Source of the DNA: Pseudomonas delhiensis
GTDB lineage: Bacteria > Pseudomonadota > Gammaproteobacteria > Pseudomonadales > Pseudomonadaceae
Length of the DNA stretch: 64,000 nucleotides
Assembly: GCF_900187975.1 (NCBI RefSeq)
Contig: NZ_FZPC01000031.1
Coordinates: 1 to 64,000, forward strand
Direction: 5' to 3'
Every line of letters begins with the position of its first letter. The stretch's first letter is position 1. A model generated the notes under the pieces. That model did no database searches. It was not told where the DNA came from and saw only the letters and a program-made list of their open reading frames with translations. Shown here one piece after another: positions 18,027 through 49,514 of this stretch. The translations under genes were made by a program, and so were the position numbers.

Positions 18027-18040
18027 ATTAATTTGTTAAC
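18027..18040. promoter_or_regulatory. Putative HpaR-type operator upstream of oprD
   Basis: ATTAA-TTTG-TTAAC has one mismatch to the GTTAA-N4-TTAAC inverted repeat found at hpaG1. It lies 69-82 bp before the oprD start codon. An 18-bp stretch starting in it (TGTTAACGATATGCATGA, 18034-18051) is nearly repeated at 18228-18245, next to the dctP-side operator. Confidence 0.55.
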
Positions 18041-18220
18041 GATATGCATGAGCGAGCGGGAGCTTTCGCCCCGCAGATCGGGCATTTTCCTATGGGGGGC
18101 CGGAAGCGCCTGTTCTATAAAGTCGAAACCCGCGGAATAACTGGCATTCCGTAGTGGCTGGCTGACATCTTGTTACATTTATCACGACGGCATTGCGCCA
18201 CCCCACGAAATGAGCATATT

Positions 18221-18234
18221 GTTAAAGTGTTAAC
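18221..18234. promoter_or_regulatory. Putative HpaR-type operator upstream of the TRAP operon
   Basis: GTTAA-AGTG-TTAAC has perfect 5-bp arms and the same spacing as the hpaG1 operators. It is 77 bp before the dctP start. The rest of the 17959-18310 divergent region holds the oprD-side operator and no gene. Confidence 0.6.
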
Positions 18235-18310
18235 GATGTGCCTGAATCTAGCCCTTCCCGGACGCCGCCAGGTGTCCGCCCGACGATAAGAACAACACCG
18301 AGGTAACGGC

Positions 18311-19342
18311 ATGAAGAAATCCTCCTTCCTGGCCCTGCTGCTCGCCTGTGGCAGCCTGGCCCCGGCCCTGGCGGCCGAGCGCGTGACGCTGAAGATCGCG
18401 CACTTCCTCCCGGCCAGCTCCAACGCCCAGCAGCACGTCATCCAGCCCTGGTGCGACACCCTGGCCCGCGAGTCGGAGCAGCGCATCCAGTGCCAGATCT
18501 ACCCCTCCATGCAGCTCGGCGGCACCCCGGGGCAACTGCCGGACCAGGTGCGCAACGGCGTGGTGGACATCGTCTGGACCGCCCCCGGCTACTCGCCCGG
18601 GCGCTTCCCGCGCAGCGAGGCGGTGGAGCTGCCGTTCATGCTGCCGGCCAACGGCGTGCAGGCCTCGAAGATCATCTGGCAGTTCTACCAGCAGGCCCTG
18701 CAGGACGATTACAAGGGCTACCGCGTGCTGGCCCTGCACAGCGACGGCGGCATGCAGCTGCACACCACCGGCAAGGCGGTGCGCCAGCTGGAAGACCTCA
18801 AGGGCCTGAAGCTGCGCGCCTCCTCGCGCATGAGCGCCCGCCTGGTCACGGGCCTGGGCGCGGCGCCGGTGAGCATGCCGGCGGCGCAGCTCACCGAGTC
18901 GCTGTCCAAGGGCGTGATCGACGGCGCCCTGGCCAGCTGGGAGCTGATCCCGGCGCTGAAGCTCGACGAGGTGACGCAGCATCACACCGACGTGCCGCAG
19001 GGCCGCCCGACCTTCTCCATCACCCTGCTGGGCATGCTGATGAACCCGCGCAGCTACGAGCGCATGCCCGACGACCTCAAGGCAATCCTCGACCGCAACA
19101 GCGGCGAGGCCCTGGTGCAGCGCTTCGGCGAAGCCTGGGACGGCGAGCTGGCTAGGGCCCGCGAGATGGTCGCCAGGGACAGCGTGGCCAGCTTCGAGCC
19201 GGCGGCCTACCAGCGCCTGCGCGAGGCGGGCGACAAGGTCACCGCCGAGTGGGTGGCCGATGCCGAGGGCAAGGGGCTGGCGGGCAGGCAACTGGCCGAG
19301 CAGCTGCGCGAGCTGTCCCGGACCGCCGGCGTCGAGCTGTAA
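18311..19342 (+). CDS. dctP: TRAP transporter periplasmic solute-binding protein (DctP family)
   Basis: A 343-residue protein with a signal peptide (MKKSSFLALLLACGSLAPALA, then A) and the DctP/TAXI-type core: VTLKIAHFLPASSNAQQHVI, VRNGVVDIVWTAPGYSPGRFP, LEDLKGLKLRASSRMSARLV (the Arg that usually salt-bridges a carboxylate ligand) and LSKGVIDGALASWELIP. It captures an organic acid and delivers it to the QM membrane units encoded next. GAGGTAACGGC precedes the ATG. The symbol denotes the family, not a proven C4-dicarboxylate specificity. Context and the upstream operator favour an aromatic or related carboxylate. Confidence 0.88.
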   Translation: MKKSSFLALLLACGSLAPALAAERVTLKIAHFLPASSNAQQHVIQPWCDTLARESEQRIQCQIYPSMQLGGTPGQLPDQVRNGVVDIVWTAPGYSPGRFPRSEAVELPFMLPANGVQASKIIWQFYQQALQDDYKGYRVLALHSDGGMQLHTTGKAVRQLEDLKGLKLRASSRMSARLVTGLGAAPVSMPAAQLTESLSKGVIDGALASWELIPALKLDEVTQHHTDVPQGRPTFSITLLGMLMNPRSYERMPDDLKAILDRNSGEALVQRFGEAWDGELARAREMVARDSVASFEPAAYQRLREAGDKVTAEWVADAEGKGLAGRQLAEQLRELSRTAGVEL

Positions 19343-25736: not shown

Positions 25737-25835
25737 GCGCGGCTTGCCGCGCTTCTTTCATTCACTGTTTATCCAAGGCCACTGGCATGCCGGCTGCATG
25801 GGAAACGGCTGTCAGAAATTCGTTGCGGGCAATTA

Positions 25836-25849
25836 GATAACATGTTAAC
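25836..25849. promoter_or_regulatory. Putative HpaR-type operator upstream of the FeaR-like gene
   Basis: GATAA-CATG-TTAAC has one mismatch in the left arm of GTTAA-N4-TTAAC and lies 40 bp before the ATG. A TTGCGG 17 bp upstream of TAACTG gives a possible weak promoter overlapping it. Confidence 0.5.
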
Positions 25850-25889: not shown

Positions 25890-26834
25890 ATGCAAGCCCA
25901 TCACGCGGCCCAGGTCGGGCTGGAAGGCTGGAGCGCGGCGTTGCGCGCCATCTGCGGCCAGTTCGAGACCCAGCTGGCTTTCAGCCGCTCGCTGTTCATC
26001 GGCGAGATCCACGCGCAATCGCACTCCGGCCTGACCATGGCGCACCTGCGCACCAATGCCGGGCTGATCGCCCGCAAGCGCCTCAATGCCGACCAGGACG
26101 ACGACCGCCACTGCTTCCTGATCAGCCAGCGCAGCGGCTTCTCCCAGGTCAGCCAGAACGGCGTGGACATCCAGCTGGCCCCCGGCGAGCTGCTGCTGAT
26201 GGATTCGGTGGGCAGCTGCGAGATCACCCCCTTCGGCCTCATCGAGCACGCCTCCCTGCACCTGCCGCGCGCGGCGCTGGACAAGGTGCTGCCCGGGCGC
26301 AGCAAGTTCGGCAAGGTCTCCGCCGCCTGCGCCAGCGGGCGCATGCTGCACCTGCTGGTGGACCAGCTGTGCCGCGAGTCCGGCTCGAGCCCCGCCGGCG
26401 CCGAAAGCGAGGCCCTGGTGAACGCCTTCATCGCCCTGCTGCCCACGGCCCTGGGCGCCAGCGACGAAGCGCCGGCCGGCGGCGAGGCGCTGCAGGGCGG
26501 CAACCTGCGCAGCTACGTGCAGAAGGTCATCGACGAATCCCTCGCCCAGCCGGGCCTGAACCCCCAGGGCCTGGCGCAGCGCCTGAACATCTCGGTGCGC
26601 CACCTGTACCGCCTGTTCGAGGAGCAGGGCGACAGCGTCTGCCGCTACATCCAGCGGGCACGCCTGCAGCGCAGCGCCGACGACCTGGCCAACCCCATCC
26701 TCAGGGGCGAGTCGATCACCACCATCGCCTACAAGTGGGGCTTCACCGACTCGGCGCACTTCAGCCGCGCCTTCAAGAAGCACTTCGAGCGCTCGCCCAA
26801 GGACTACCGCGCCTGCGCCCTGGGCGCGGCCTGA
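25890..26834 (+). CDS. feaR: FeaR-like AraC-family transcriptional regulator
   Basis: A 314-residue protein. The N-terminal AraC_binding_2-type domain (about 1-190) has GEIHAQSHSGLTMAHLRTNAGLIARKR, DDDRHCFLISQRSGFSQVSQNG, LAPGELLLMDSVG and HASLHLPRAALD, a pattern typical of FeaR. The C-terminal HTH_18 domain (about 210-310) has QGLAQRLNISVRHLYRLFEEQGDSV and TTIAYKWGFTDSAHFSRAFKKHFERSPKDYR. In E. coli FeaR activates feaB and the tyramine oxidase gene tynA in response to aromatic amines or aldehydes. CGGAGGTGCGT fixes the start at 25890. An HpaR-like operator lies upstream. Confidence 0.75.
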   Translation: MQAHHAAQVGLEGWSAALRAICGQFETQLAFSRSLFIGEIHAQSHSGLTMAHLRTNAGLIARKRLNADQDDDRHCFLISQRSGFSQVSQNGVDIQLAPGELLLMDSVGSCEITPFGLIEHASLHLPRAALDKVLPGRSKFGKVSAACASGRMLHLLVDQLCRESGSSPAGAESEALVNAFIALLPTALGASDEAPAGGEALQGGNLRSYVQKVIDESLAQPGLNPQGLAQRLNISVRHLYRLFEEQGDSVCRYIQRARLQRSADDLANPILRGESITTIAYKWGFTDSAHFSRAFKKHFERSPKDYRACALGAA

Positions 26835-35437: not shown

Positions 35438-36736
35438 TCAGCGCCGCCCGGTCCAGTAGCCGGACACCTGGTGCCAGGTCTTGCCGGCGCTGAGCAGCAG
35501 CGGGCGGACCTGGTCCTTGCCGTGGACGCGGATGCGCTTCACCGAGCTGATCAGGTCGTAGCGCGCCGAGCCTTCGCTCATGCCCTCGGCCAGCACCTTG
35601 CAGATGATGTGGCTGGGGGTGACGCCGAAGCCGGAATAGCCCTGCACGAAAAAGGCGTTGGGGCGGCCGGGCAGGGCGCCGATCTGCGGGAACAGGTTGG
35701 GGCTGCAGGCCATGGGGCCGCCCCAGGCGAGGTCGATCTTCACGTTCTCGAGGTAGGGGAAGATCTTCAGCATCAGCTTGCGGTTCCAGGCCTTGAGGTC
35801 GCGCGGGATGTGCTCGATGAAGGGCGTGGCGGCGCCGAACAGCAGGCGGTTCTCGCGGGTCACGCGGTAGTAGTCGATGACCGGGCGGATGTCGCTGTAG
35901 GCGCCGCGGATCGGGCTGATGCGCTGGATGAGCTCGTCCGGCAGCGGCTCGGTCATCATCTGGAAGGCGTAGGTGTTGATGGTGCTCTTGTGCAGCTCCG
36001 GCTCCAGCTTGTTGAGGAAGCTGTCGCAGGCCCAGAGCAGCTTGCTGGCCTTCACCGAGCCCTTGGCGGTGCGCACGGTGATGCGCTCGCCGTAGGTCAC
36101 GTCCAGCGCCGGGCTGTATTCGAAGATCTTCACCCCGTGGCCGGCCAGGGCCTTGGCCTCGCCGAGCAGCAGGTTGAGCGAGTGCACGTGGCCGCCGCCC
36201 ATGTGCAGCAGGGCGCTGGAATAGGCGTCGGAGCCGATGATCTGGCGCACCTCGGAGCCGTCCAGGTAGCGGATCTCGTGGCGCGAGTCGAGCGACTTGA
36301 ACTCGCGCTCCCAGGCCCGCAGGGTCTTCGCCTGGCGGGCGTTGAAGCCCATGTAGCCGTAGCCGTGGCAGAAGTCGGCGTCGATGTCGTACTTGCGGAT
36401 GCGCTCCTTGATGATGTCGGCGCCCAGGTCGCTGATCTCGAAGATCTGCCGCAGGCCGTCCTCGCCGACGTCTTTCCTGATCTTCTCCAGGTCGTGGCCG
36501 ATGCCGGCCATGATCTGCCCGCCGTTGCGCCCGGTGCCGCCGAAGCCGAGGTAGCGCGCCTCCAGCACGACGATGTCGGTGATGCCCTTCTCGGCCAGCT
36601 CCAGCGCGGTGTTGATGCCGGAGAAGCCGCCGCCGATCACGACCACGTCGGCCTCCAGGTCCGCCTCCAGGGAGGGGAAGGCGAGGTCGTACTTCTTGGT
36701 CGCGGTGTAGTAGGTGGGGGTCTCGATGTTGATCAT
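35438..36736 (-). CDS. FAD-dependent oxidoreductase of the PuuB (gamma-glutamylputrescine oxidase)-like group
   Basis: A 432-residue DAO-family flavoprotein. The dinucleotide-binding fold is ADVVVIGGGFSGINTALELAEKG (about 29-51), followed by the characteristic VVLEARYLGFGGTGRNGGQIMAG loop. FGAATPFIEHIPRDLK and the C-terminal FAD-contact segment FVQGYSGFGVTPSHIICKVLAEGM complete it. Relatives oxidise secondary or primary amines such as gamma-glutamylputrescine or N-methyl amino acids. No canonical tyramine oxidase (copper/TPQ or MAO type) is in the window, so this is the best local candidate for amine oxidation. The paired downstream cupin and the upstream GlcG-like gene with an HpaR-like operator support membership of the local regulon. 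Confidence 0.75.
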   Translation of the reverse strand: MINIETPTYYTATKKYDLAFPSLEADLEADVVVIGGGFSGINTALELAEKGITDIVVLEARYLGFGGTGRNGGQIMAGIGHDLEKIRKDVGEDGLRQIFEISDLGADIIKERIRKYDIDADFCHGYGYMGFNARQAKTLRAWEREFKSLDSRHEIRYLDGSEVRQIIGSDAYSSALLHMGGGHVHSLNLLLGEAKALAGHGVKIFEYSPALDVTYGERITVRTAKGSVKASKLLWACDSFLNKLEPELHKSTINTYAFQMMTEPLPDELIQRISPIRGAYSDIRPVIDYYRVTRENRLLFGAATPFIEHIPRDLKAWNRKLMLKIFPYLENVKIDLAWGGPMACSPNLFPQIGALPGRPNAFFVQGYSGFGVTPSHIICKVLAEGMSEGSARYDLISSVKRIRVHGKDQVRPLLLSAGKTWHQVSGYWTGRR

Positions 36737-36865
36737 GACTGCAGCCTGGAACCGGAGGGAAAGGGGTGCGACTGGCGTCGCGCGGATGGCCTATTAGGGC
36801 CCGCGCGACGCTGTTTGTCTTGATCCAGGCTGCCCGGCTTCTTGTCCGGGGCTGACAGGCCGGCG

Positions 36866-37306
36866 TCAGCCCTGCAGCAGGCTGCGCACGTGCTCGACGG
36901 CGGCGCGGGCGCAGCTGCAGTCCAGTTCCTCGGAGGCGCCGGACACGCCGATGGCGCCGATCACCTCGCCGGACAGGCGAAAGGGCTCGCCGCCGCCGTA
37001 CAGGGCCAGCCCCGGTTGCAGCGGCAGGCCCTGGCGCACCGCGTCCGAGCAGCGCTCCAGGCGCGCCTGCCAGTCGCGGGTGGGCAGGTTGAAGGCGGCG
37101 GCAGTGCGCGCCTTGCTCAGGGCGATGTCGCGGGACGGCGCGGGCGCCGCGTCCATGTGCGCGCTATGCACCGGCAGGCCGCTGGCGTCGACCACGACGA
37201 TGCTGACCCGCGCCTGCAGCTCTTCGGCGCGGTTCAGCGCGGCCTGCAGGGCCTGCATGGCGAGGGTCAGGGTAAGGCTGGTCTGCTGGCGAAGGAGGTG
37301 GGACAT
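36866..37306 (-). CDS. GlcG/HbpS-like (heme-binding protein family) cytosolic protein
   Basis: A 146-residue protein of the GlcG/HbpS fold (PF03928): RVSIVVVDASGLPVHSAHMDAAPAPSRDIALSKARTAAAFNLPT, then PGLALYGGGEPFRLSGEVIGAIGVSGAS. There is no signal peptide. Homologues bind heme or cobalamin-like cofactors or have unknown roles in catabolic operons. A GGAG site precedes the ATG. An HpaR-like operator (37345-37358) lies 39 bp upstream in the position of a core promoter. The FAD oxidoreductase follows after 129 bp, so the three genes to 35036 may be one operon. Confidence 0.72.
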   Translation of the reverse strand: MSHLLRQQTSLTLTLAMQALQAALNRAEELQARVSIVVVDASGLPVHSAHMDAAPAPSRDIALSKARTAAAFNLPTRDWQARLERCSDAVRQGLPLQPGLALYGGGEPFRLSGEVIGAIGVSGASEELDCSCARAAVEHVRSLLQG

Positions 37307-37344: not shown

Positions 37345-37358
37345 GTTAATATCTTAAC
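37345..37358. promoter_or_regulatory. Putative HpaR-type operator upstream of the GlcG-like gene
   Basis: GTTAA-TATC-TTAAC has perfect arms, and the left flank ATA is shared with the hpaG1 operator. Read leftward, it is followed by TATCAT as a possible -10, the same operator-in-spacer layout as at hpaG1 but with a poor -35 (CCTGGA). Confidence 0.6.
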
Positions 37359-37511: not shown

Positions 37512-38312
37512 TCAATACACCGAAGGGGCAGAGGGGGCCTGGGCCTGGGCGCCGCCCTTGAACCGGCCGGCCAGCTCGCGCAGCGAGCGCATCAGCAGGC
37601 TGGTGTCCACGCCCACGGCGACGAACTTCGCGCCCAGTTCCAGGTAGCGCCGGGCCAGCTTCTCGTCGGCGCTGAGGATGCCGGCGGCCTTGCCGGCGCG
37701 CTGGATGCGGACGATGGCGTCCTCGATGGCGGCCTGCACGTCCGGGTGCCCCGGGTTGCCGCGGTGGCCCATGGCCGCGCTGAGGTCGGCCGGGCCGATG
37801 AACACGCCGTCGACGCCGTCCACCGCGGCGATGGCATCGAGGTTGGCCAGGCCTTCGAGGTTCTCCACCTGTACCAGCAGGCACATCTGCGCGTCCGCCT
37901 CGTCGAGGTAGCCGGGGATGCTGTTCCAGCGCGAGGCGCGGGCCAGGGCGCTGCCCACGCCGCGCACGCCGAACGGCGGGTAGCGCATGGCGCGGACCAG
38001 CTCGGCGGCCTGTCCGGCGGTGTCCACCATGGGCACCAGCAGGGTCTGCGCGCCTATGTCGAGCAACTGCTTGATCAGCGCCGTGTCGCCGACCACCGGG
38101 CGGATGATCGGCTGCGCCGGGTAGGGCGCCACCGCCTGAAGCTGGCCGAGCAGGCTGCGCAGGTCGTTGGGCGCGTGCTCGCCGTCGAGCAGCAGCCAGT
38201 CGAAGCCGGCATTGGCCGCCAGCTCCGCGCAATACGGGTCGGCCAGGCCGAGCCAGAGGCCGATCTGCGCGTCGCCGGAAAGAAGGCGGGCCTTGAAATG
38301 ATTCACGAACAT
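37512..38312 (-). CDS. hpaI: 4-hydroxy-2-oxoheptanedioate aldolase HpaI
   Basis: A 266-residue class II (metal-dependent) aldolase of the HpcH/HpaI family: [37 protein letters not shown], the metal-binding [15 protein letters not shown] and [23 protein letters not shown]. It cleaves 4-hydroxy-2-oxoheptane-1,7-dioate to pyruvate and succinic semialdehyde, the last step of the homoprotocatechuate meta pathway. It is the last gene of the operon. Compared with E. coli HpaI the length is normal, with a short extra Ala/Pro tail ([14 protein letters not shown]). The succinic semialdehyde dehydrogenase is not in the window. Confidence 0.93.
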
Positions 38313-38400
38313 GGAGGGCTCCTCGGGCTGCAGGCTTCAGGCGACAGGCTGCAGGCAAAGAGCGCTCTTGCCTGTCGCCTGCAGCCTGAAGCCTGCCGCC

Positions 38401-39204
38401 TCAAACAAATCGACAGGAAATACTGCCGAGCTGGTCGTAGTCGACATGGAAGGTGTCGCCGGGGGCCGCGGCCACCGGGCGGGTGAAGGAGCCGCCGAGG
38501 ATCACCTGGCCGGGCTCCAGGGTGACGTCGTAGGGGGCCAGCTTGTTGGCCAGCCAGGCCACGCCCTTGGCCGGGTGGTTGAGCACCGCGGCGGAGACCC
38601 CGGATTCCTCGATCACGCCGTTGCGGTAGAGGATCGCCGGCACCCGCCGCAGGTCGATGTCGCCGGGCCGCACGGCGCGGCCGCCCATGACCACGCCGGC
38701 GTTGGCGGCGTTGTCGGAGATGGTGTCGAAGACCTTGCGGGTGGCCTTGGTCTGCGGGTCCACCTGCTGGATGCGCGCGTCGATGATCTCCAGCGCCGGG
38801 ATCACCCACTCGGTGGCCTCCAGCACGTCGAACAGGGTGACGTCCGGGCCTTTCAGCGGCTTGCCGAGGATGAACGCCAGCTCCACTTCCACCCGCGGCA
38901 CGATGAAGCGTTCGAAGGGGATGTCGCTGCCTTCGTCGAAGAACATGTCGTCCAGCAGCGCGCCGTAGTCCGGCTCGGTGATGTTCGACGAGACCTGCAT
39001 GGCGCGCGAGGTCAGGCCGATCTTGTGGCCCTTGAGCACGCGGCCGTTGGCTATCTTCCGAGCCACCCAGGCGCGCTGGATGGCGTAGGCGTCCTCGATG
39101 GCGATGTCCGGGTAGTCGAGGGAGAACTGCCGCACCTGCTGGCGCGAACGCTCGGCGGCGTCGAGGCGGGCGGCGGCTTCCTGGATGAGGGTGGCGTCGA
39201 GCAT
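38401..39204 (-). CDS. hpaH: 2-oxo-hept-4-ene-1,7-dioate hydratase HpaH
   Basis: A 267-residue hydratase of the fumarylacetoacetate-hydrolase/MhpD group: [32 protein letters not shown], the acidic metal site [21 protein letters not shown], and [19 protein letters not shown]. The C-terminal [39 protein letters not shown] is typical. It adds water to 2-oxohept-4-ene-1,7-dioate, giving the substrate of HpaI. It lies between hpaX and hpaI. The 88-bp gap to hpaI contains a short inverted repeat (GCAGGCTTCAGGCGACAGGC with its complement). Confidence 0.92.
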
Positions 39205-39217
39205 GGCTGTGTCTCTT

Positions 39218-40522
39218 TCAGCGGGGGTTGACCACGGCGGCCGGGGTGCGCAGCACCAGGGCGGCGCCGAGGGCGATGAGGATGGCCAGCAGGTACAGGG
39301 CCAGGCTGGAGCTGTGGGTGGTGTCGCGCATCCAGCCGATGAAGTAGGGCGCGGCGAAGGCGGCGATGCTGCCGAAGGAGCTGATCAGGGCGATGCCGGC
39401 GGCCTGCGCGCGGTTGCCGAGGAAGGCCGGCGGCAACTGCCAGAACATCGGCAGGGCGGCGCTGGCGCCCATGCCGGCGAGCACCAGCCCGGCCAGCACC
39501 AGCGGCGCGCTGGTGGGCGCCAGGCCCGTCAGGGCCAGGCCGGCGGCGGCCAGCAGCAGCGGCACGGCGAGGTGCCAGCGGCGCTCGCGGCGGCGGTCGG
39601 AGGAGCGCCCCAGGGCGATCATGAACACGCAGCCGGCCAGGTACGGCAGGGCGCTGAGCAGGCCGACGCGGCCGTCGGAGCCGATGCCGGCGCCGTGGAT
39701 CAGGCTGGGCATCCAGAACGCCAGGGTGTTCACCGCCAGCATCACCGCGAAGTAGATGGCCACCAGCAGCCAGACGTGGCTGTCGCGCAGGATGCCGGCG
39801 AAGGAGGTGATCTGCTTGCGCTGCTCCTCGCCACGCATCTCCTCGCGCAGGCCGGCCTTCTGCGCCTCGCTCAGCCAGGCCACGCGCTCGAAGCTCTCCG
39901 GCAGGCAGCGCCAGACCAGCAGGCCGAGCAGCACCACCGGCAGGCCCTCGATGAGGAACATCCACTGCCAGCCGCGCAGCCCGAGGAAGTCGTGGAAGCC
40001 CTCGAGGATGCCGCCGGACAGCGGCCCGCCGACCACCCCGGCCATGGGCACGGCGATGGCGAACAGCGCGGTGACGCCGGCGCGGCGGCGCGCCGGGAAC
40101 CAGCGGTTGAGGTAGACCAGGATGCCGGGGAAGAAGCCGGCCTCGGCCACCCCCAGCAGCAGGCGCAGGGTGTAGAAGCCGGCGGCGCTCTGCACCAGCA
40201 GCATGGCGGTGGACAGCAGGCCCCAGGTGACCATCAGGAAGGCGATCCAGCGGCGCGGGCCGACGCGTTCCAGCATCAGGTTGCTGGGCACGCCGAACAG
40301 CGCGTAGGCGACGAAGAACAGCCCGGCGCCCAGGCCGTAGACGGTATCGCTGAAGTGCAGGTCGGCGCTCATCTGCAGCTTGGCGAAGCCGATGTTGATG
40401 CGGTCCAGGTGGGCGAATACGTAGCACACCAGCAGCAGCGGCATCAGGCGCCAGACCACGCGGGCGTGGGTGGCGTCGCTGGCGGCGGGCAGGGCGGCGG
40501 GGGACAGGGTGGCGGTGCTCAT
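39218..40522 (-). CDS. hpaX: 4-hydroxyphenylacetate permease HpaX (MFS, anion:cation symporter)
   Basis: A 434-residue MFS carrier of the ACS family: [64 protein letters not shown] at the N-terminus is the diagnostic ACS motif, followed by [30 protein letters not shown]. About 12 transmembrane helices and a central cytoplasmic loop ([12 protein letters not shown]) are present. E. coli HpaX takes up 4-hydroxyphenylacetate. It lies inside the hpa operon between hpaF and hpaH, which supports the name. It may act in parallel with the TRAP system at 18.3-21.2 kb. Confidence 0.87.
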
Positions 40523-40565
40523 GGTCTTGTCTTTGTTCTGCGAGTGGCCGGGAGGGTGGCAGGCT

Positions 40566-40958
40566 TCAGAGCGCCTGGCCCTTGAGGAAGGCGTGAACGT
40601 TGTTCTGCTTGTAGTTGAGCTCGGCGTTCAGCTCGCTCATCTCGAAGGACAGCGCCAGCAGGCGGCGCGCCTGGAGTTCGGCGAAGTGCGCCTTGATCAC
40701 CTCGAAGAGCGCGTCGGCCACCTGCCGGCGGGTTTCCAGGTCGCGCCCGGCGCCCACCTTCAGGCTCATGTGGACGAAGGCGTAGTCGTGCTGGCCGTCG
40801 GCCATGCGCCAGGTATCCAGGCGCACGGCGCGGCTGCGGATGCCGCCCAGCGGGAACACCCCGCTGTCGCCGAGGCAGGCGTGGACCTTCTCGAACAGGC
40901 CGGGCAGGTCGGCCTCGGCCTCGATGTTGTGGGTGTACTCGGCGATGAAGTGCGGCAT
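40566..40958 (-). CDS. hpaF: 5-carboxymethyl-2-hydroxymuconate delta-isomerase HpaF
   Basis: A 130-residue protein of the tautomerase-superfamily CHMI group. The catalytic Pro is the residue after the initiator Met (MPHFIAEYTHNIEAEADLPGLFEKVH), and RLDTWRMADGQHDYAFVHMSLKVGAGRD and a C-terminal ELNAELNYKQNNVHAFLKG complete the fold. It isomerises 5-carboxymethyl-2-hydroxymuconate to 5-oxo-pent-3-ene-1,2,5-tricarboxylate for HpaG. It lies 10 bp after hpaD; GAGGACC precedes the ATG. Confidence 0.92.
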   Translation of the reverse strand: MPHFIAEYTHNIEAEADLPGLFEKVHACLGDSGVFPLGGIRSRAVRLDTWRMADGQHDYAFVHMSLKVGAGRDLETRRQVADALFEVIKAHFAELQARRLLALSFEMSELNAELNYKQNNVHAFLKGQAL

Positions 40959-40968
40959 GGCGGGGTCC

Positions 40969-41892
40969 TCAGAGGCGGCTGCCGGACGGGTTGCCGGCGG
41001 GGTTGGAGGCCTGGGCGGCGGGGATCGCCGAGCCGTCCTGCGGGGTCACCGGGAACACCACGTTGATCTGCCCGGTGCCGGAGGAGCCGAAGTAGGGCGT
41101 GACCACTTCGCCCTGGCCGTCGTAGTCCGACCAGCCGAGCGCGCCCAGGAGCATGGCGGTGTCGTGCATGAAGCCTTCGCCGTGGCCCTTGGCCGCGTAT
41201 TCCGGGAGCATGCCGCAGAAGGTCTGCCAGTCGCCGCGTTGCCACATCCGCACCACCTCGTGGTCGAGGGTTTCCAGGAAGGGGCTCCAGACCTTGTCGG
41301 CGAATTCCGGGGCCTGGCCGTTCTGGGCGAAGCGGTGGGTCAGCGAGCCGCTGGCGAGGAAGGCCACGGTGCCGTCGTAGTGCTCTTCCACCGCCTTGCG
41401 CATGGCCCAGCCCAGGCGCGCGCTGTCGTTGAGGTAGTGCACGGTGCACAGCGCCGAGACCGAGATCACCTTGAAGTGCTGGTCCTGGTTCATGTAGCGC
41501 ATCGGCACCAGGGTGCCGTACTCCGGGCCGAGGGTGGTGGCGTCGTGGGCCAGCACGTCCACGCCCATGGCGTTGCAGCCTTCGGCGAGGATGCGCCCCA
41601 GCTGCGGGTTGCCGGGGAACTCGTACTCCATGTTGGCGATGAAGTGCGGCAGCTCGTTGCTGGTGTACAGGCCCTGGAAGTGCGGCGCGCAGTTGACGTG
41701 GTAGCCGGCGTTGACCAGCCAGTGGGTGTCGAACACCACTATGGTGTCCACCCCCAGCTCGCGGCAGCGCCGGCCGATCTCGCGGTGGCCGTCGATGGCG
41801 GCCTGGCGGCTGCCCTGGCGCGGGCCGGGCAGTTCGGAGAGGTACAGCGAGGGAACGTGGGTGATCTTGGCAGCCAGAGCGAGTTTGCCCAT
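40969..41892 (-). CDS. hpaD: 3,4-dihydroxyphenylacetate 2,3-dioxygenase HpaD
   Basis: A 307-residue LigB-type (type III) extradiol dioxygenase: KITHVPSLYLSELPG near the start, VVFDTHWLVNAGYHVNCAPHFQGLYTSNELPHF, and FLASGSLTHRFAQNG, whose His residues fit iron ligands. A second conserved block is KGHGEGFMHDTAMLLGALGWSDYDGQGEVVTPYFGSSGTGQINVVFPV. It opens the ring of homoprotocatechuate at the 2,3 bond. The length is slightly greater than that of E. coli HpaD because of a short low-complexity tail (IPAAQASNPAGNPSGSRL). The ATG at 41892 is preferred over in-frame upstream codons, which lie in non-homologous sequence. Confidence 0.92.
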   Translation of the reverse strand: MGKLALAAKITHVPSLYLSELPGPRQGSRQAAIDGHREIGRRCRELGVDTIVVFDTHWLVNAGYHVNCAPHFQGLYTSNELPHFIANMEYEFPGNPQLGRILAEGCNAMGVDVLAHDATTLGPEYGTLVPMRYMNQDQHFKVISVSALCTVHYLNDSARLGWAMRKAVEEHYDGTVAFLASGSLTHRFAQNGQAPEFADKVWSPFLETLDHEVVRMWQRGDWQTFCGMLPEYAAKGHGEGFMHDTAMLLGALGWSDYDGQGEVVTPYFGSSGTGQINVVFPVTPQDGSAIPAAQASNPAGNPSGSRL

Positions 41893-42005
41893 GGTGGTTC
41901 TCCTGGTGCGGGGCGCCGCCGCTGGGGCGCCCGGATTCTTGTGATTGTTGGCTGCACGCCGGCGATGCAGGCGGCCTTGCGGGCCGCTCTCATCGGGCCG
42001 CCTTT

Positions 42006-43466
<1,461 letters not shown>

Positions 43467-43485
43467 GCTTGTATCTCTGTCTCGA

Positions 43486-44256
43486 TTAGGTACGGGCGCG
43501 GTTCGCGAAGAACTCGGCCTCGCTGACGATGCGGTTGACCAGGCGGCCGACGCCTTCCACTTCCACCACCACTTCATCGCCCGGCACCACGTCGGCCAGG
43601 CCTTCCGGCGTGCCGGTGGCGATCATGTCGCCCGGCTGCAGGGTCATGAAGCTGGAGAAGTATTCGATCAGGTAGGGGATGTCGAAGATCATGTCCGCGG
43701 TGGTGCCTTCCTGCTTCAGCTCGCCGTTGACCCAGGTGCGCAGCTTCAGCCGCGACGGGTCGGGCACGTCGGCGGCGTCGACTATCCAGGGGCCGACCGG
43801 GGTGGTGGCGTCGCGGTTCTTCACCCGCAGGTTGGGCCGGTAGTAGTTCTCCAGGTAGTCGCGGATGGCGTAGTCGTTGCAGACGGTGTAGCCGTCCAGG
43901 TAGGCGAGGGCGTCCTCGCGCCGGACGTTGCGCGCCGGCTTGCCGATCACCGCCACCAGCTCGCACTCGTAGTGCATGTAGGCGACGCCGTCGGGGCGCC
44001 AGGTCACCTGGTTGTGGCCGGTGTAGGTGCCCTTGGACTTGATGAACGCCAGCGGCTCGGTGGGCGCCTTGAAGGCCAGTTCGGCGGCGTGGTCGGCGTA
44101 GTTCAGGCCGAGGGCGAACATGGTCCCGCTGGCCGGCGGCAGCCATTGCACCTCGTGCTCGCCGAGCAGCCGGCCATCGGCCAGGCGCACGGCGTTGTCG
44201 GCTTCCACCGTGACCGCGTGGACTTCGCCCTGGTAGCGGATGCGTGCGTGTTTCAT
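43486..44256 (-). CDS. hpaG2: HpaG2: isomerase/decarboxylase subunit of the homoprotocatechuate pathway
   Basis: A 256-residue FAH-family protein: FALGLNYADHAAELAFKAPTEPLAFIKSKGTYTGHNQ, the metal site MHYECELVAVIGKPARNV and NDYAIRDYLENYYRPNLRVKNRDATTPVGPWIVD. In E. coli the two halves are fused in HpaG; many Pseudomonas carry two genes, as here. It acts in the decarboxylation and isomerisation of 5-oxo-pent-3-ene-1,2,5-tricarboxylate to 2-oxohept-4-ene-1,7-dioate. It begins one base after the hpaG1 stop, with a strong GGAGGAAGCC site inside hpaG1. The symbol follows common usage. Confidence 0.92.
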   Translation of the reverse strand: MKHARIRYQGEVHAVTVEADNAVRLADGRLLGEHEVQWLPPASGTMFALGLNYADHAAELAFKAPTEPLAFIKSKGTYTGHNQVTWRPDGVAYMHYECELVAVIGKPARNVRREDALAYLDGYTVCNDYAIRDYLENYYRPNLRVKNRDATTPVGPWIVDAADVPDPSRLKLRTWVNGELKQEGTTADMIFDIPYLIEYFSSFMTLQPGDMIATGTPEGLADVVPGDEVVVEVEGVGRLVNRIVSEAEFFANRART

Positions 44257-44257
44257 C

Positions 44258-44923
44258 TCAGGCTTCCTCCGCCACCACGTGATTGACCAGGCGGCCGAGA
44301 CCTTCGATCTCCACCACCACCTCGTCGCCCGGCCGCACATCGACGCGGCCCTCGGGGGTGCCGGTGATGAGCACGTCGCCGGCGTGCAGGGTCATGAATT
44401 CGCTGATCTCGGCGATCAGCTGCGGGATGCTGCGCACCAGGTTGGCGGTACTGTTCTGCTGGCGCACTTCGCCGTTGACCAGCAGGCGGACCGGCAGGGC
44501 GTGCGGGTCGGCGATCTCGTCGCGGCCGACGACTTCGCTGCCCAGGGGGCAGAAGCCGTCGCGGCACTTGGCCTTGACCGCGGGGCGGTAGTAGCTGTCT
44601 TCCGGCAGGCTGAACTCGTTGACGATGACGTAGCCGGCGACGCAGGCCATGGCTTCGTCCACGCCCACGCGGCTGGCGTCGCGGCCGAGCACCACGCCCA
44701 GGGCCGGGCCCGGCTGCAGGCGCTCGACGCCGGCCGGGAAGACCACGGGCGCACCGTCGCCATTGCGGGTGTTCGGCGTCTTGATGAACAGCACCGGCTT
44801 GACCGGCGGTTTCTGATAAGGCGGTTGCTGGAATTCCTCCAGCCGGCTCTGCAACAGGCCCCGGTAGTTCAGCGCGACGCCGAACAGGGTGCCCGTTGCG
44901 GCTTCGCTGACAGCGCGACGCAT
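44258..44923 (-). CDS. hpaG1: HpaG1: isomerase/decarboxylase subunit of the homoprotocatechuate pathway
   Basis: A 221-residue FAH-family protein, shorter than HpaG2: FGVALNYRGLLQSRLEEFQQPPYQKPPVKPVLFIKTPNTRNGDG, PGPALGVVLGRDASRV (metal-binding region), NEFSLPEDSYYRPAVKAKCRDGFCPLGSEVV. It ends TPEGRVDVRPGDEVVVEIEGLGRLVNHV. It is the first gene of the eight-gene leftward hpa operon and is preceded by a strong sigma70-like promoter overlapped by two inverted-repeat operators. AGGAGAACCAAGCC precedes the ATG. The first ~30 residues overlap no other gene and the length fits other stand-alone HpaG1 proteins. Confidence 0.92.
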   Translation of the reverse strand: MRRAVSEAATGTLFGVALNYRGLLQSRLEEFQQPPYQKPPVKPVLFIKTPNTRNGDGAPVVFPAGVERLQPGPALGVVLGRDASRVGVDEAMACVAGYVIVNEFSLPEDSYYRPAVKAKCRDGFCPLGSEVVGRDEIADPHALPVRLLVNGEVRQQNSTANLVRSIPQLIAEISEFMTLHAGDVLITGTPEGRVDVRPGDEVVVEIEGLGRLVNHVVAEEA

Positions 44924-44971: not shown

Positions 44972-44985
44972 GTTAACATGTTAGC
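44972..44985. promoter_or_regulatory. Putative HpaR operator 1 at hpaG1 (start-site proximal)
   Basis: GTTAA-CATG-TTAGC has one mismatch in the right arm. It lies immediately downstream of the -10 of the hpaG1 promoter, so a bound repressor would cover the transcription start. A GC-rich hairpin (GGCCGCC...GGCGGCC, ~44947-44964) in the leader lies next to it. Confidence 0.65.
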
Positions 44986-45014
44986 GTTATAGTTAATATG
45001 TTAACTATGGTCAA
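44986..45014 (-). promoter_or_regulatory. sigma70-type promoter of the hpa operon
   Basis: Read leftward: -35 TTGACC (45009-45014), exactly 17 bp of spacer, then -10 TATAAC (44986-44991). It is the clearest sigma70-like promoter in the catabolic part of the window. The spacer is filled by an operator (44989-45008). Confidence 0.75.
44989..45008. promoter_or_regulatory. Putative HpaR operator 2 at hpaG1 (within the promoter spacer)
   Basis: ATAGTTAA-TATG-TTAACTAT is a 20-bp inverted repeat with perfect 8-bp arms, the best copy of the motif. It sits between the -35 and -10 of the hpaG1 promoter, where binding would exclude RNA polymerase. E. coli HpaR is known to repress its operon through two palindromic operators, which fits this layout. 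Confidence 0.75.
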
Positions 45015-45201
45015 GCCTCTTCCATCGGGGCCTGATCCCGCTGCGAACATTGGAGCAGGCACGCAGATGTTGGGATTGTCCGGCGCTGCCATGGCCTTGA
45101 CCGACGCTGCCAGGGAGCCGGGCGGGCTTTCGCCGGGTTTGCCTGGGGAGGGGCTATGCTGGTTAAAATCTTTCCTACTTTCAGTCGAGTAGCCTCTTTC
45201 C

Positions 45202-45624
45202 ATGTCCACGCCGCGTCCGTCCCTGACCCTCACCCTGCTACAGGCCCGCGAGGCCGCCATGGCCTTCTTCCGCCCCTCGCTCAACCAGCACGACCTGACC
45301 GAGCAGCAGTGGCGCATCGTGCGCATCCTCCGCCAGCAGGGCGAGATGGAGATCTACCAGCTGGCGCAGCAGGCCTGCATCCTCAAGCCGAGCATGACCG
45401 GCGTGCTGGCGCGCATGGAGCGCGACGGCCTGGTGCGCCGCTGGAAGTCCGAGCACGACCAGCGCCGCGTGCTGGTGTGCCTGAGCGAGCAGGGCCAGCA
45501 GTGCTTCGTGGCCATGAGCGGCGACATGGAGAACAACTACCGGCGCATCCTCGAACAGTTCGGCGAGGACAAGCTGCAGCAGTTGCTGGGGCTGCTCGAC
45601 GAGCTGAAGAAGATCAAGCCCTGA
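45202..45624 (+). CDS. hpaR: HpaR, MarR-family repressor of homoprotocatechuate degradation
   Basis: A 140-residue MarR protein: LLQAREAAMAFFRPSLNQHDLTEQQWRIVRILRQQGEMEIYQLAQQACILKPSMTGVLARMERDGLVRRWKSEHDQRRVLVCLSEQG contains the winged helix (about 40-100) and the DQRRV wing; flanking helices form the dimer interface. E. coli HpaR represses the meta operon and is released by 4-hydroxyphenylacetate and related compounds. It is divergent from hpaG1 across a 278-bp region containing both operators and followed after 62 bp by hpaA. I infer that it also acts at the similar inverted repeats elsewhere in the window. Confidence 0.92.
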   Translation: MSTPRPSLTLTLLQAREAAMAFFRPSLNQHDLTEQQWRIVRILRQQGEMEIYQLAQQACILKPSMTGVLARMERDGLVRRWKSEHDQRRVLVCLSEQGQQCFVAMSGDMENNYRRILEQFGEDKLQQLLGLLDELKKIKP

Positions 45625-45686
45625 GGCGCTTCGCAGGAGCGGGCAAGAACCAGGCGTCCCCCTCGCTCCTGCAGGTAGGTAACACC

Positions 45687-46601
45687 ATGGCCCGTGCACC
45701 CATCCCCAACATCGACATCGGCCAGGTCTACGACCTGCGCTACAGCGATTCCGAGGTGCACTACGAGGAACTGGGCAAGCTGGCCGACTTCTTCGGCCGC
45801 AACATGCCGGTGCACCGCCACGACCGCTTCTTCCAGGTGCACTACGTGAAGAGCGGCTCGGTGCGCGTCTACCTCGACGAGCAGCTCTACCACCGCCAGG
45901 GCCCGCTGTTCTTCCTCACCCCGCCGACCATCCCCCACGCCTTCGTCACCGAGAACGACGCCGACGGCCACGTGCTGACGGTGCGCCAGCAACTGCTCTG
46001 GCCGCTGCTGGCGCCCGAGCAGGGCCTGGCCGCCGGACCGGACATAGGCCCGGTGTGCGTGGCCTTCGACCAGCTGGACGAGACCTCCGCCAGCGAGGTG
46101 GCGCGCCTGGACGGGCTGTTCGACCTGCTGCGCGAGGAGTTCCGCGGCGAGCGCCCGGGCCGCGAACTCGCCCTGGCCGACCTGGTGCGGCTGATCTTCG
46201 TCAGCCTGCTGCGCCTGTCGGCCCGCTCGCTCAAGGCGCAGCCCATGCGGCGCGAGGACCTGCGCCTGTTCCAGCGCTTCAACCAGCTGATCGAGCAGCA
46301 CTACCCCGAGCACTGGCCGCTGGCGGCCTACGCCGAGCGCATCGGCGTCACCGAGGCGCGCCTCAACGACATCTGCCGGCGCGTCGCCGGGTTGCCCTCC
46401 AAGCGCCTGGTACACGAGCGGCTGATGCAGGAGGCGCGGCGCCTGCTGCTGTTCAGCGGCAGTTCGGTGAACGAAATCTGCTACCAGCTCGGCTTCAAGG
46501 ACCCGGCCTACTTCAGCCGCTTCTTCGCCCGCAATGCCGGGATGGCGCCGGGGGAGTATCGGCAGCGTAGGGCGGGTGACAAGGAAGAGGCCTGGCGCTA
46601 G
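45687..46601 (+). CDS. hpaA: HpaA, AraC-family activator for 4-hydroxyphenylacetate catabolism
   Basis: A 304-residue protein: an N-terminal cupin-type effector domain (GRNMPVHRHDRFFQVHYVKSGSVRVYLDEQLYHRQGPLFFLTPPTIPHAFVTE) and a C-terminal AraC helix-turn-helix (LAAYAERIGVTEARLNDICRRVAGLPSKRLVHERLMQEARRLLLFSGSSVNEICYQLGFKDPAYFSRFFARNAGMAPGEYR). In E. coli HpaA activates the hydroxylase operon in response to 4-hydroxyphenylacetate. The hydroxylase genes at 49.7-52.0 kb are the natural targets here. AGGTAGGTAA precedes the ATG. A short inverted repeat (GCAGGAGCG...CGCTCCTGC) lies in the hpaR-hpaA gap. Confidence 0.88.
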   Translation: MARAPIPNIDIGQVYDLRYSDSEVHYEELGKLADFFGRNMPVHRHDRFFQVHYVKSGSVRVYLDEQLYHRQGPLFFLTPPTIPHAFVTENDADGHVLTVRQQLLWPLLAPEQGLAAGPDIGPVCVAFDQLDETSASEVARLDGLFDLLREEFRGERPGRELALADLVRLIFVSLLRLSARSLKAQPMRREDLRLFQRFNQLIEQHYPEHWPLAAYAERIGVTEARLNDICRRVAGLPSKRLVHERLMQEARRLLLFSGSSVNEICYQLGFKDPAYFSRFFARNAGMAPGEYRQRRAGDKEEAWR

Positions 46602-46994: not shown

Positions 46995-48200
46995 ATGCCC
47001 ACCCCAGCCCACCCCCAGCGCCTGATCCTGCCCCTGGCCGCGCTGGTCGCCTTCGCGCCCCTGTCCATCGACACCTACCTGCCCAGCCTGCCGCTGATCG
47101 CCGGCGACCTGGGGGCCGGCGCCGGCGAGGTGCAGCTGACCATCAGCCTGTTCCTCGCCGGATTGTGCCTGGGCATGCTGTTCTACGGGCCGCTGTCGGA
47201 CCGCTTCGGCCGTCGCCGCCTGCTGCTGGGCGGCATCTGCCTGTACCTGCTGGCCACCCTCGGCTGCCTGTTCGCCGGCAGCGCCCCGGCGCTGATCGCC
47301 TGGCGCTTCTTCCAGGCCCTGGGCGGGGCGGCGGCCTCGGTGCTGGCGCGGGCCATAGTGCGCGACCTGTTCCCCCTGCAGCAGTCGGCGCGGGTGCTTT
47401 CGCTGATGCACCTGGTGACCATGCTCGCCACCCTGGTGGCGCCGCTGCTGGGCAGCCTGCTGGCCCAGGCCGCCGGCTGGCGCGCGGTGTTCGCCGTGCT
47501 CTTCGCCTTCGCCGCGGCGTGCCTGCTGACCGTGCTGTGGCGCATACCCGAAAGCCTGCCGGCGGAGCACCGCGGGCAGTCGGTGGCGCAGGTGTTCCGC
47601 GCCTACGGGCGCATCCTGCTGCAGCCCAGGGCGCTGGGCTACATGCTGTGCATGGGCCTGTCGTTCGGCGGCATGTTCGCCTTCATCACCGCCTCGCCCT
47701 TCGTCTACATCGAGTATTTCGGCGTTTCGCCACAGGCCTATGCCTGGCTGTTCAGCCTGAACATCGCCGGCATCATCCTGGCCACCAGCCTCAATGCGCG
47801 CCTGGTGGGGCGGCTCGGGCCGCAGCGGATGCTCGCCTTCGGCGCTGCCCTGGCCGCGCTGTCGGGGGCGCTCCTGCTGGGCTGCGGCTTCGCCGGCTGG
47901 GGCGGGCTGCCGGCGCTGGTGCTGGGCGTGCTGCTCTACGTCAGCGTCACCGGCCTGCTCGGCGCCAACTGCGTGGCCAGCCTGCTGGCGCTGTTCCCCC
48001 GCGAGGCCGGCGCCGCCGCCGGGCTTGCGGTCGCCGGGCAGTTCGCCCTGGGGGCGGCCTGCAGCGCCCTGGTCGGCGCGCTTTCCGACGGCAGCCCCTG
48101 GCCGATGTGCCTGGTGGTCGGCTGTGCCGGCCTCGGCTGCCTGCTGGCCTTCCTCCTGGCCCGCCGGCATGCCCCGCAACCGCTGGCTGAGGCCGCCTGA
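46995..48200 (+). CDS. Bcr/CflA-family MFS drug-type exporter
   Basis: A 401-residue carrier with 12 predicted helices. ALVAFAPLSIDTYLPSLPLIAGDLGAGAGEVQLTISLFLAGLCLGMLFYGPLSDRFGRRRLLLGG is the diagnostic Bcr/CflA start, and RFFQALGGAAASVLARAIVRDLF the helix-5 motif. The family exports antibiotics, sulfonamides and amino acids or metabolites by proton antiport. Placement beside hpaA and an HpaR-like operator in front suggest induction with the pathway, perhaps to expel toxic intermediates such as catechols. It is convergent with the next MFS gene, with only one base between stop codons. Confidence 0.85.
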   Translation: MPTPAHPQRLILPLAALVAFAPLSIDTYLPSLPLIAGDLGAGAGEVQLTISLFLAGLCLGMLFYGPLSDRFGRRRLLLGGICLYLLATLGCLFAGSAPALIAWRFFQALGGAAASVLARAIVRDLFPLQQSARVLSLMHLVTMLATLVAPLLGSLLAQAAGWRAVFAVLFAFAAACLLTVLWRIPESLPAEHRGQSVAQVFRAYGRILLQPRALGYMLCMGLSFGGMFAFITASPFVYIEYFGVSPQAYAWLFSLNIAGIILATSLNARLVGRLGPQRMLAFGAALAALSGALLLGCGFAGWGGLPALVLGVLLYVSVTGLLGANCVASLLALFPREAGAAAGLAVAGQFALGAACSALVGALSDGSPWPMCLVVGCAGLGCLLAFLLARRHAPQPLAEAA

Positions 48201-48201
48201 C

Positions 48202-49431
48202 CTAGGCCGGCTGTTCCTCCGCCCGCGCCGCCCGGCGCAGGCCCTGCCAGACGCAGTAGGCCAGCAGCAGGGCGCCGGCCACCGTCATCGCCCAGGGGCC
48301 GCCGTAGCGCGCCGCCAGCAGCCCGGCGAGCAGGCCGCCGATGGCGTCGAAGCCGAAGCGCGTGGCGGTGTAGATCGACACCACGCGGCCGCGCAGTGCC
48401 TCCGGCGCGCTGCTCTGGATGACGATGTTGGTGCCGACGTTGTTCACCGTGACGCCGAAGCCCAGCACCGCCATGGCCGCCAGCGACAGCGGCAGGTTGC
48501 GGCTGAGGGCGAACGCCAGCAGGGCGCCGGCGCTGGCCAGGGCGGAAAGCAGGATGATCCGCGGCAGCCGCGCCGGGTCCTGGTGCTGCGCCAGGAACAG
48601 GCTCGACAGCAGCGAGCCGAAGCCGGCCGCGCCCCACAGCCAGCCGAGGGTGCGCGCGTCGCCGGCGAAGACGTCGCGGGCGAATACCGGCAGCAGCGCG
48701 GCGTAGCTGGAAGCGGTGAGGTTGACCAGCAGCACGCCGAGCATCAGCTGGCGCACGCTCGGCGTGCGCAGGGCGTAGTCCAGGCCCTCGCGGAACACGC
48801 TGCCCATGCTGCCGCTGGCGCGCACGCCGGGCGCCAGGCGCACCCGCAACAGGCCGCCCACCAGCGCCAGGTAGGACAGGGCGTTGAGGGCGAAGCACAG
48901 GCTCTCGCTGGTCAGCCCCAGCAGCAGCCCGGCCAGCGGCGGGCCGACGAAGCGCGAGCAGGTGAACAGCGAGGCGTTCAGCGCCAGGGCGTTGGGCAGG
49001 TCGGCGCGGTCGTCGACGAAGCGGCTGAGCAGCGACTGCCGCAGCGGCGTGTCGAAGGCGCTGAGCACCCCGAGCAGCGCCGACATGCCCACCAGCAGCG
49101 CCGGGGTGATCAGGCCGGCGGCGGTCAGCCCGGCCAGGCTGGCGGCCTGCAGGGCCATCAGGCTCTGGCTGGCGAGCAGCAGGCGGCGCTTGTCGTGGCG
49201 GTCGATCCAGGCGCCGGCCAGGGGGCCGATGAACAGCTGCGGCAGCAGCGCCACGCAACTGGTGATGCCCAGCAGCGCCGCCGAGCCGGTCAACCGGTAG
49301 ACCAGCCAGGCCAGCGCCACCTGCTGGACCCAGGTGCCCAGGGTGGAGATCGCGTGGCCGGCGAAGTACAGGCGGAAGTTGCGGTGGCGCAGCGCGCGCA
49401 GGCTGTTCGGCCAGGAACGGGAAGCGGACAT
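48202..49431 (-). CDS. MFS transporter of the EntS-like (MFS_3) group
   Basis: A 409-residue protein with about 12 helices: LRHRNFRLYFAGHAISTLGTWVQQVALAWLVYRLTGSAALLGI at the N-terminus is typical of EntS/MFS_3 proteins, and GPLAGAWIDRHDKRRLLLASQSLMALQ carries the D-R/K loop-2/3 motif. Related proteins export siderophores and other small molecules. There is no siderophore cluster nearby, so the substrate is unknown. It is divergent from the hydroxylase genes across 49432-49732, which contain a degenerate HpaR-like site. Confidence 0.82.
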   Translation of the reverse strand: MSASRSWPNSLRALRHRNFRLYFAGHAISTLGTWVQQVALAWLVYRLTGSAALLGITSCVALLPQLFIGPLAGAWIDRHDKRRLLLASQSLMALQAASLAGLTAAGLITPALLVGMSALLGVLSAFDTPLRQSLLSRFVDDRADLPNALALNASLFTCSRFVGPPLAGLLLGLTSESLCFALNALSYLALVGGLLRVRLAPGVRASGSMGSVFREGLDYALRTPSVRQLMLGVLLVNLTASSYAALLPVFARDVFAGDARTLGWLWGAAGFGSLLSSLFLAQHQDPARLPRIILLSALASAGALLAFALSRNLPLSLAAMAVLGFGVTVNNVGTNIVIQSSAPEALRGRVVSIYTATRFGFDAIGGLLAGLLAARYGGPWAMTVAGALLLAYCVWQGLRRAARAEEQPA

Positions 49432-49500
49432 CGGCGGCTCGCTCGGGCGAAGGATGAAGGAGGGACGGCGGCCATCATAGCGGAAATTTTCCGTCAGAAC

Positions 49501-49514
49501 GTTTAGATGTTAAT
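49501..49514. promoter_or_regulatory. Degenerate HpaR-type operator between the MFS_3 gene and the hydroxylase genes
   Basis: GTTTA-GATG-TTAAT has one mismatch in each arm of GTTAA-N4-TTAAC. It is the weakest copy of the motif: 70 bp from the MFS start and 219 bp from the hydroxylase start. The remainder of this 300-bp gap shows no gene. Confidence 0.35.

Follow-up and report, generated by a model that had tools for sequence, protein, structure and literature searches.

How far does the control exerted by the MarR-family repressor HpaR extend? In those parts of the literature that were accessible, HpaR appears foremost as the repressor of one ring-cleavage operon. A stretch of 64,000 nucleotides from Pseudomonas delhiensis (contig NZ_FZPC01000031.1; hereafter the window, bases 1-64000 of contig 63 among the 81 contigs of the genome) carries hpaR at 45202-45624 together with eight copies of an inverted repeat, which in the original prediction for this DNA were taken as signs of an enlarged HpaR regulon. 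At the level of sequence this idea is supported by the uniqueness of the strict motif, by a matrix built from other genomes, by conservation of the promoters, by co-occurrence of hpaR and by a core identical to that of an Escherichia coli site. We consider it quite probable that the eight sites are operators of HpaR and that its regulon extends to the regulator gene feaR, to an OprD-family porin and a TRAP transporter and to exporters, with feedback wiring.

The palindromic sites and their probable repressor

All eight of the predicted palindromes were found at their positions. They are spread over six intergenic regions and are listed here with their mismatches to GTTAA-N4-TTAAC and, in part, with their scores in the matrix described below (no strand is assigned).

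18027..18040: candidate HpaR-type operator ATTAATTTGTTAAC, oprD side of the divergent oprD/TRAP region; 1 mismatch; matrix 13.4 bits; counterparts in genomes G010 and G019
18221..18234: candidate HpaR-type operator GTTAAAGTGTTAAC, TRAP side of the same region; perfect; matrix 11.5 bits; perfect counterparts in G010 and G019
25836..25849: candidate HpaR-type operator GATAACATGTTAAC, feaR promoter; 1 mismatch
37345..37358: candidate HpaR-type operator upstream of a GlcG/HbpS-like gene and of the FAD-oxidoreductase gene that follows; perfect
44972..44985: candidate HpaR-type operator 2 of hpaG1, just downstream of the -10 element; 1 mismatch
44992..45005: candidate HpaR-type operator 1 of hpaG1/hpaR; perfect; best matrix score, 18.7 bits
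46951..46964: candidate HpaR-type operator upstream of a Bcr/CflA exporter gene; perfect
49501..49514: candidate HpaR-type operator in the divergent mfs3/hydroxylase region; 2 mismatches

While the GTTAA-N4-TTAAC sites are real, their core is better seen as a continuous palindrome with the consensus nATnGTTAACATGTTAACnATn. TTAA-N4-TTAA is exact in five of the eight sites, and one arm deviates in 25836, 44972 and 49501. The predicted intergenic placement is correct for all seven sites with at most one mismatch, based on the gene list assigned here, and non-coding DNA makes up 11-15% of the region 16699-52009. With up to two mismatches allowed, 12 matches were obtained in the window versus 1.29 expected from shuffles, and no shuffle out of 100 yielded as many. 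Two of these matches overlap sites already counted, and those at 460 and 45162 are additional. The 45162 match (2 mismatches) was rejected as an operator, as only one half of it, GGTTAAAATC, is conserved and it more plausibly belongs to the hpaR promoter.

Rather than being equally frequent throughout the genome (6,727,430 bases), the perfect palindrome occurs in four copies that are all located inside the window. Copies with at most one mismatch number 19, with seven in the window and 12 elsewhere (reversed-pattern control: 21), and under uniform scatter the probability of finding at least seven of 19 copies inside 64 kb is about 3e-10. The spacer NNTG is present in six of the seven window sites with at most one mismatch, and the 12 comparable copies outside the window have neither NNTG nor its complement. 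On contigs 29, 30 and 38 of the same genome (L005, L007 and L010) an identical 14-mer, CTTAAGCGTTTAAC or its complement, occurs three times and is perhaps repeat-derived.

The prediction that a MarR-family HpaR is encoded beside the best copies was borne out by a TIGR02337 score of 191.6 bits (cut-off 121.2), and at E <=1e-20 the genome encodes one HpaR. Other MarR-family proteins are present, with at least 11 matches to TIGR02337 at E <=0.001 (11 of 38 candidates scored); among the matches listed only HpaR is above the cut-off. HpaR of the window and E. coli HpaR are 53% identical over 129 residues and share the stretch ACIL[KR]PS[ML]TG[VI]L[AT]RMERDGLV, which we take to be the DNA-binding region. 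The A. baumannii HpaR structures 7el2 and 7el3 were found by sequence match. In the hpaR-hpaG region of an E. coli genome, ATTAACATATTAAT is located near hpaG, and its 12-bp core TTAACATATTAA is the same as the core of window site 44992 on the strand of hpaG1. As described in the accessible part of the source, Yersinia HpaR protects two 15-bp sites with TTAA-XXXX-TTAA in the hpaG1 promoter from DNase I, one of them over the -10 element, similar to E. coli W (PMC7180172).

The genes around the sites are the following.

16699..17988, minus strand: OprD-family porin (oprD); PF03573, 506.9 bits
18311..21210, plus strand: TRAP transporter; solute-binding protein and large permease assigned by family, small permease by position
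25890..26834, plus strand: feaR; NF007243, 368.3 bits, cut-off 199; start re-set to 25890, with GGAGG upstream
35438..37306, minus strand: GlcG/HbpS-like gene (glcG, 36866-37306), then FAD-dependent oxidoreductase (35438-36736, named fadox here); NCBIfam/Pfam
37512..44923, minus strand: hpa meta-cleavage operon (hpaG1, G2, E, D, F, X, H, I); NCBIfam above cut-off except hpaX (318 versus 615), with hpaF assigned by gene order and no family scan
45202..45624, plus strand: hpaR, MarR-family repressor, TIGR02337 score as above
45624..46601, plus strand: hpaA, AraC-family activator; TIGR02297, 428.7 bits, cut-off 274.65
46995..48200, plus strand: Bcr/CflA-family exporter (bcr); NF008314, 328.4 bits, cut-off 303
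48202..49431, minus strand: MFS transporter, named mfs3 here; TIGR00900 below cut-off
49733..52009, plus strand: two-component p-hydroxyphenylacetate 3-hydroxylase; oxygenase 49733-50902 and reductase 51074-52009; NF045920, 760.6 versus 650 bits, and NF045919, 535.9 versus 340 bits

Further window genes, identified by NCBIfam and Pfam, encode a phenylacetaldehyde-dehydrogenase-like enzyme (below the family cut-off) and an amino-acid-type permease. Judged by their neighbours and by FeaR, the permease, the dehydrogenase, the oxidoreductase and FeaR would serve tyramine-like amines. Between a LuxR-type regulator gene and a MoaF-like gene, at 31572-33269, no gene was assigned; a 361-aa frame tested there gave no family match.

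Conservation across Pseudomonas

Conservation was followed in a genus set of 25 genomes, of which nine encode HpaR at E <=1e-20 and 16 do not at that limit. The exact pattern GTTAANNTGTTAAC was found in seven of the nine HpaR-positive versus one of the 16 HpaR-negative genomes. It occupies 16 places in the 25 genomes, 13 in regions matching the window and three outside such regions (G010 contig 50, G022 contig 17 and the HpaR-negative G023). Window proteins and the motif (at most two mismatches) were then mapped onto the nine hpaR-bearing genomes, with the genomes that have the respective gene as denominators. The hpaG1 pair recurs in all nine (19-21 bp apart), the site between mfs3 and the hydroxylase in the same place in eight of eight (one or two mismatches), the feaR site at seven of seven orthologues and the bcr site in six of six genomes with bcr in the mapped stretches. 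feaR itself is present in seven of the nine HpaR-positive versus none of the 16 HpaR-negative genomes. In G019 about 40 kb, rather than 7 kb, separate the TRAP genes from feaR, and sites are retained at both, while oprD of G016 has no adjoining TRAP genes, yet two sites. hpaR is divergent from hpaG1 in eight of the nine genomes; in G012 it adjoins bcr/oprD, and sites are present in both regions. The bcr of G012 is a 61% homologue with a site about 170 bp upstream, and its feaR, which is 59% identical and located some 60 kb from the hpa operon, still carries GATAACATGTTAAT.

The matrix is a sequence-only model generated from the 82 rows that 41 sites of eight other Pseudomonas genomes give when both strands are taken, with no window sequence. 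The 41 sites were picked at mapped promoters in hpaR-bearing genus genomes with at most two mismatches; overlapping second matches, two-mismatch matches without a mapped gene and a one-mismatch site of G022 (C3:444969) were excluded. An unfiltered scan of the window by this matrix returned precisely the eight sites and no others at E <=10. A whole-genome scan by matrix, which had been proposed as a check of the original prediction, returned six of the eight sites and no other match at the same limit. The sites 18221 and 49501 were unlisted there though they score in the window scan; they may have been lost to the first-look filter or to the limit on E. The choice of sites partly builds agreement in motif shape into the matrix, but not the specificity of the matrix in the held-out genome.

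A second HpaR, 60-65% identical, is encoded near hpaI in G008, G016, G019 and G021 and adjoins glcG in the first three, and many other Pseudomonas have two HpaR-like genes as well. In two-copy species this paralogue, HpaR2, might bind part of the sites, with HpaR alone serving all of them in the lineage of the window. We regard this as possible, if rather unlikely, and it is compatible with the explanation preferred here. The single HpaR of the window genome speaks against it, as does the lack of any copy, at up to two mismatches, between glcG and hpaR2 in G008, G016 and G019. In the window, the segment 36866-37511 lacks the second HpaR seen near here in the four sister genomes. Its GlcG-like gene is 69% identical to that of G010, versus 93-96% for the neighbours hpaI, fadox, cupin and luxR2, and the segment may have been exchanged.

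The feaR promoter was analyzed in the best 80 of 133 loci from a FeaR search of named genomes, four of which (L150-L153) match contigs of G010, G019, G016 and G021. Within 250 bp upstream of feaR, a site with at most one mismatch was found in 79 of the 80 loci, and one with two mismatches in the last; in resampled feaR upstream regions a site was found in 27 of 8000. As the loci are related to one another, these counts cannot be treated as independent events. The 14 bases of the site average 1.91 bits versus 0.69 and 0.89 in the flanks, in an alignment anchored on the best motif match and hence favouring the site, while a GTTG element 11-14 bases upstream, outside the anchor, is nearly invariant. 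The candidate feaR operator is sharply defined across the 80 loci, mostly with GATAA in one arm. An HpaR-like gene (E <=1e-20) is present in 77 of the 78 searchable feaR genomes (those of L174 and L206 fall outside this number); in one of the 77 it is no more than a fragment of 54 residues. The window genome has a second feaR (contig 24, 11678-12568, L120; 370 bits), and no HpaR-type site was found within 3.9 kb of it. Family searches across the whole class, over 369 genomes for each protein, placed HpaR above cut-off in 8 genomes and FeaR in 1; these genomes were too distant for comparison, and the searches served for the paralogues of the window genome alone.

Other targets were counted in 76 of these loci (the 80 minus L150-L153), with at most one mismatch within 250 bp upstream unless stated. 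Sites were obtained upstream of hpaR in 45 of 50 cases, of fadox in 36 of 56 (often in a region shared with divergent hpaR), of hpaG1 in four of four, of hpaA in three of three, of bcr and mfs3 in two of two each and of oprD in one of two. Cupin (5/63), luxR2 (2/30) and hpaX (1/40) gave few, and no site was found upstream of the permease (0/75), aldehyde dehydrogenase (0/54), or glcG (0/3) genes, or of inner hpa genes such as hpaH (0/44) and hpaI (0/48).

Promoter geometry and alternative explanations

The hpaG1 promoter was placed as follows.

44986..45014, minus strand: hpaG1 promoter TTGACC-N17-TATAAC, assigned by eye from the consensus only

Judged by eye, the hpaG1 promoter reads TTGACC-ATA-operator-TATAAC, where operator plus 3 bp fill the 17-bp spacer, and all nine genomes share this arrangement, apart from small differences. 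In the window the second hpaG1 operator follows 20 bp, about two helical turns, downstream of the first. At feaR, site 25836 overlaps the 17-bp spacer of a candidate promoter TTGCGG-N17-TAACTG (25823-25851, by eye) and ends 40 bp before the re-set start 25890. The hpaG1 and feaR sites also have ATA...TAT-type flanks in common. With an operator at the -35/-10 spacer of each promoter, this arrangement agrees with a repressor that acts by keeping RNA polymerase off the DNA. A possible AraC-type box is formed by two repeats of the TGGCAGCG type at 45073-45113, between hpaG1 and hpaR; they were recognised by eye, are spaced by about 21 bp and vary in several relatives.

AraC proteins act at such promoters, and both feaR and hpaA adjoin copies of the palindrome, so that FeaR or HpaA might be the protein that binds it. 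This is very unlikely: AraC sites are usually direct repeats, and separate direct-repeat boxes are present at 45073-45113 and 49581-49611. Moreover, G001 and G022, which are without FeaR at E <=1e-60, keep the motif at both hpaG1 and bcr. The repeat at 49581-49611 (AAGTGCAATC...GGAAGTTGCATTC) is located between the 49501 site and the hydroxylase genes and was found in eight of eight genus genomes with the gene. It resembles an activator box and is perhaps a site of HpaA.

Control of the ring hydroxylase by HpaR through 49501 is doubtful, because this site is closer to mfs3 (70 bp) than to the hydroxylase (more than 200 bp), because the separate conserved box is present and because no such site was seen at the hydroxylase in other Pseudomonas loci, unlike the shared region of the eight genus genomes. 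In hydroxylase upstream regions of those loci (again without L150-L153), none of 46 had a copy at up to two mismatches within 400 bp, where 1.5 were expected by chance, and a stricter setting also gave 0/46.

The hydroxylase result is one of several observations that limit, or weigh against, the assignment of all eight sites to HpaR. At up to two mismatches the genome holds 158 copies versus 351 of the reversed control, i.e. no enrichment; only the strict motif is therefore informative, and the 49501 copy needs evidence beyond its own sequence. The oprD/TRAP site pair is present in three of three genomes with the genes, all of them related, and no convincing -35 element was seen by eye at oprD and TRAP, which may also need an activator. 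The glcG site recurs in one of five glcG-bearing genus genomes, the counterpart of 37345 being absent in four. feaR and the hpa genes plausibly form one pathway, so that their co-occurrence would be expected without regulation. Genome G455 has a feaR site without detected HpaR. Both hpaE and the operator pair of hpaG1 are present in it, and its contig breaks off within hpaA, the gene that hpaR follows in locus L215. The missing hpaR of G455 is likely an assembly gap.

Exact copies of the motif also occur at the three unlinked places in relatives (L078 near 7136, L079 near 10236 and L081 near 7711), one of them in a genome without HpaR. As regulon members these sites of G010, G022 and G023 were dropped, since no window proteins matched in those stretches. 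A phage tail tape-measure gene is located near the site of G010 and a phage-type HNH endonuclease gene near that of G023. Around the site of G022 no phage family was matched; a nearby 124-aa gene of unknown family is closely similar to the gene beside the G010 site.

The last point of this kind is the one-mismatch copy at C3:444969 of G022 (L068 near 9969), which is flanked by another MarR-type gene and by a gene for a Rieske-type oxygenase, both named by eye. It is perhaps the operator of the adjoining MarR protein. Almost the same palindrome may serve another MarR protein, and therefore the motif by itself does not tell which protein binds it. HpaR might then be limited to hpaG1/hpaR, perhaps with bcr, and a different MarR-type repressor might act on feaR and TRAP/oprD. 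The other MarR-family proteins encoded in the genome and the GATAA arm of most feaR sites agree with such a division, and the G022 site makes it slightly more probable and HpaR control of all sites slightly less. Overall a second repressor is improbable: a single matrix captures all eight window sites and no others, hpaR occurs alongside feaR in all but one of the searchable genomes, and the hpaG1 and feaR sites have their flanks in common.

A resemblance of AT-rich promoter sequence to the motif by mere chance would agree with the missing enrichment at two mismatches and with the location of the sites in AT-rich promoters. It is hardly credible given that the perfect copies are restricted to this island, that the feaR sites far outnumber those of resampled regions, that conservation is higher in the 14-bp block than around it (even if the anchored alignment favours the block) and that the matrix scan of the genome gave no equal matches elsewhere at E <=10.

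Of the original proposal that one repressor coordinates the whole pathway, the targets in uptake, amine use (feaR), ring cleavage and efflux are supported by sequence and conservation. Ring hydroxylation is doubtful, with no site at the hydroxylase in the 46 other Pseudomonas cases, and the glcG site is weak, given its recurrence in one of five relatives.

A proposed HpaR circuit and known systems

From the sites, their uniqueness and conservation and their match to the published operator, we infer binding, repression, induction and feedback as follows. In the absence of substrate, a HpaR dimer would occupy each palindrome, and at hpaG1 and feaR, where the palindrome is located in the -35/-10 spacer, RNA polymerase would be blocked. 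Accumulation of 4-hydroxyphenylacetate or a downstream catechol would release HpaR, leading to derepression of the hpaG1 operon, hpaR, feaR, the OprD porin, the TRAP importer and the two exporters. FeaR, once derepressed, would raise amine uptake and oxidation. The product of amine oxidation would in this way induce the pathway that leads to it, in a positive feedback loop. On balance we favour a picture in which HpaR is, across Pseudomonas, the switch of the whole tyramine-type amine pathway, repressing both feaR and ring cleavage with product-induced positive feedback, and in which porin, TRAP importer and exporters were added in the P. citronellolis group.

If feaR, the importer and the exporters are indeed under HpaR, the use of biogenic amines in Pseudomonas would be organised around the pathway product and not the amine alone. 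A study from 2010 reportedly, by its title, treated the breakdown of amines and the 3,4-dihydroxyphenylacetate pathway as a single catabolic unit. The operator and the repressor were already known, while the wider target set, above all feaR, seems to be new as far as the open-licence literature shows; no report of HpaR control of feaR or of TRAP/oprD, nor a binding assay on the additional sites, was found there, which is weak evidence. The matrix can be used for annotating the HpaR regulon in other genomes.

Acinetobacter baumannii has the HpaR family and a two-component hydroxylase in common with P. delhiensis, and release of its HpaR is triggered by pathway intermediates, according to the accessible part of the source (PMC12718150). 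HpaR binding is named in that part upstream of hpaA and of the meta-cleavage operon only, unlike the wider set of sites in P. delhiensis. The HpaR/hpaG systems of E. coli W and Yersinia pseudotuberculosis, as far as the accessible sections of PMC7180172 describe them, are alike in the HpaR family, in the divergent arrangement of hpaG1 and hpaR, in TTAA-N4-TTAA operators and in an operator that overlaps the hpaG1 promoter. The spacing of the hpaG1 operators differs, with 20 bp in P. delhiensis versus about 180 bp implied by the positions -189 and -8 given for Yersinia in the same sections. Unlike what is described there for E. coli W and Yersinia, P. delhiensis has eight sites in six intergenic regions, including those of feaR, of the porin and TRAP genes and of the exporters.

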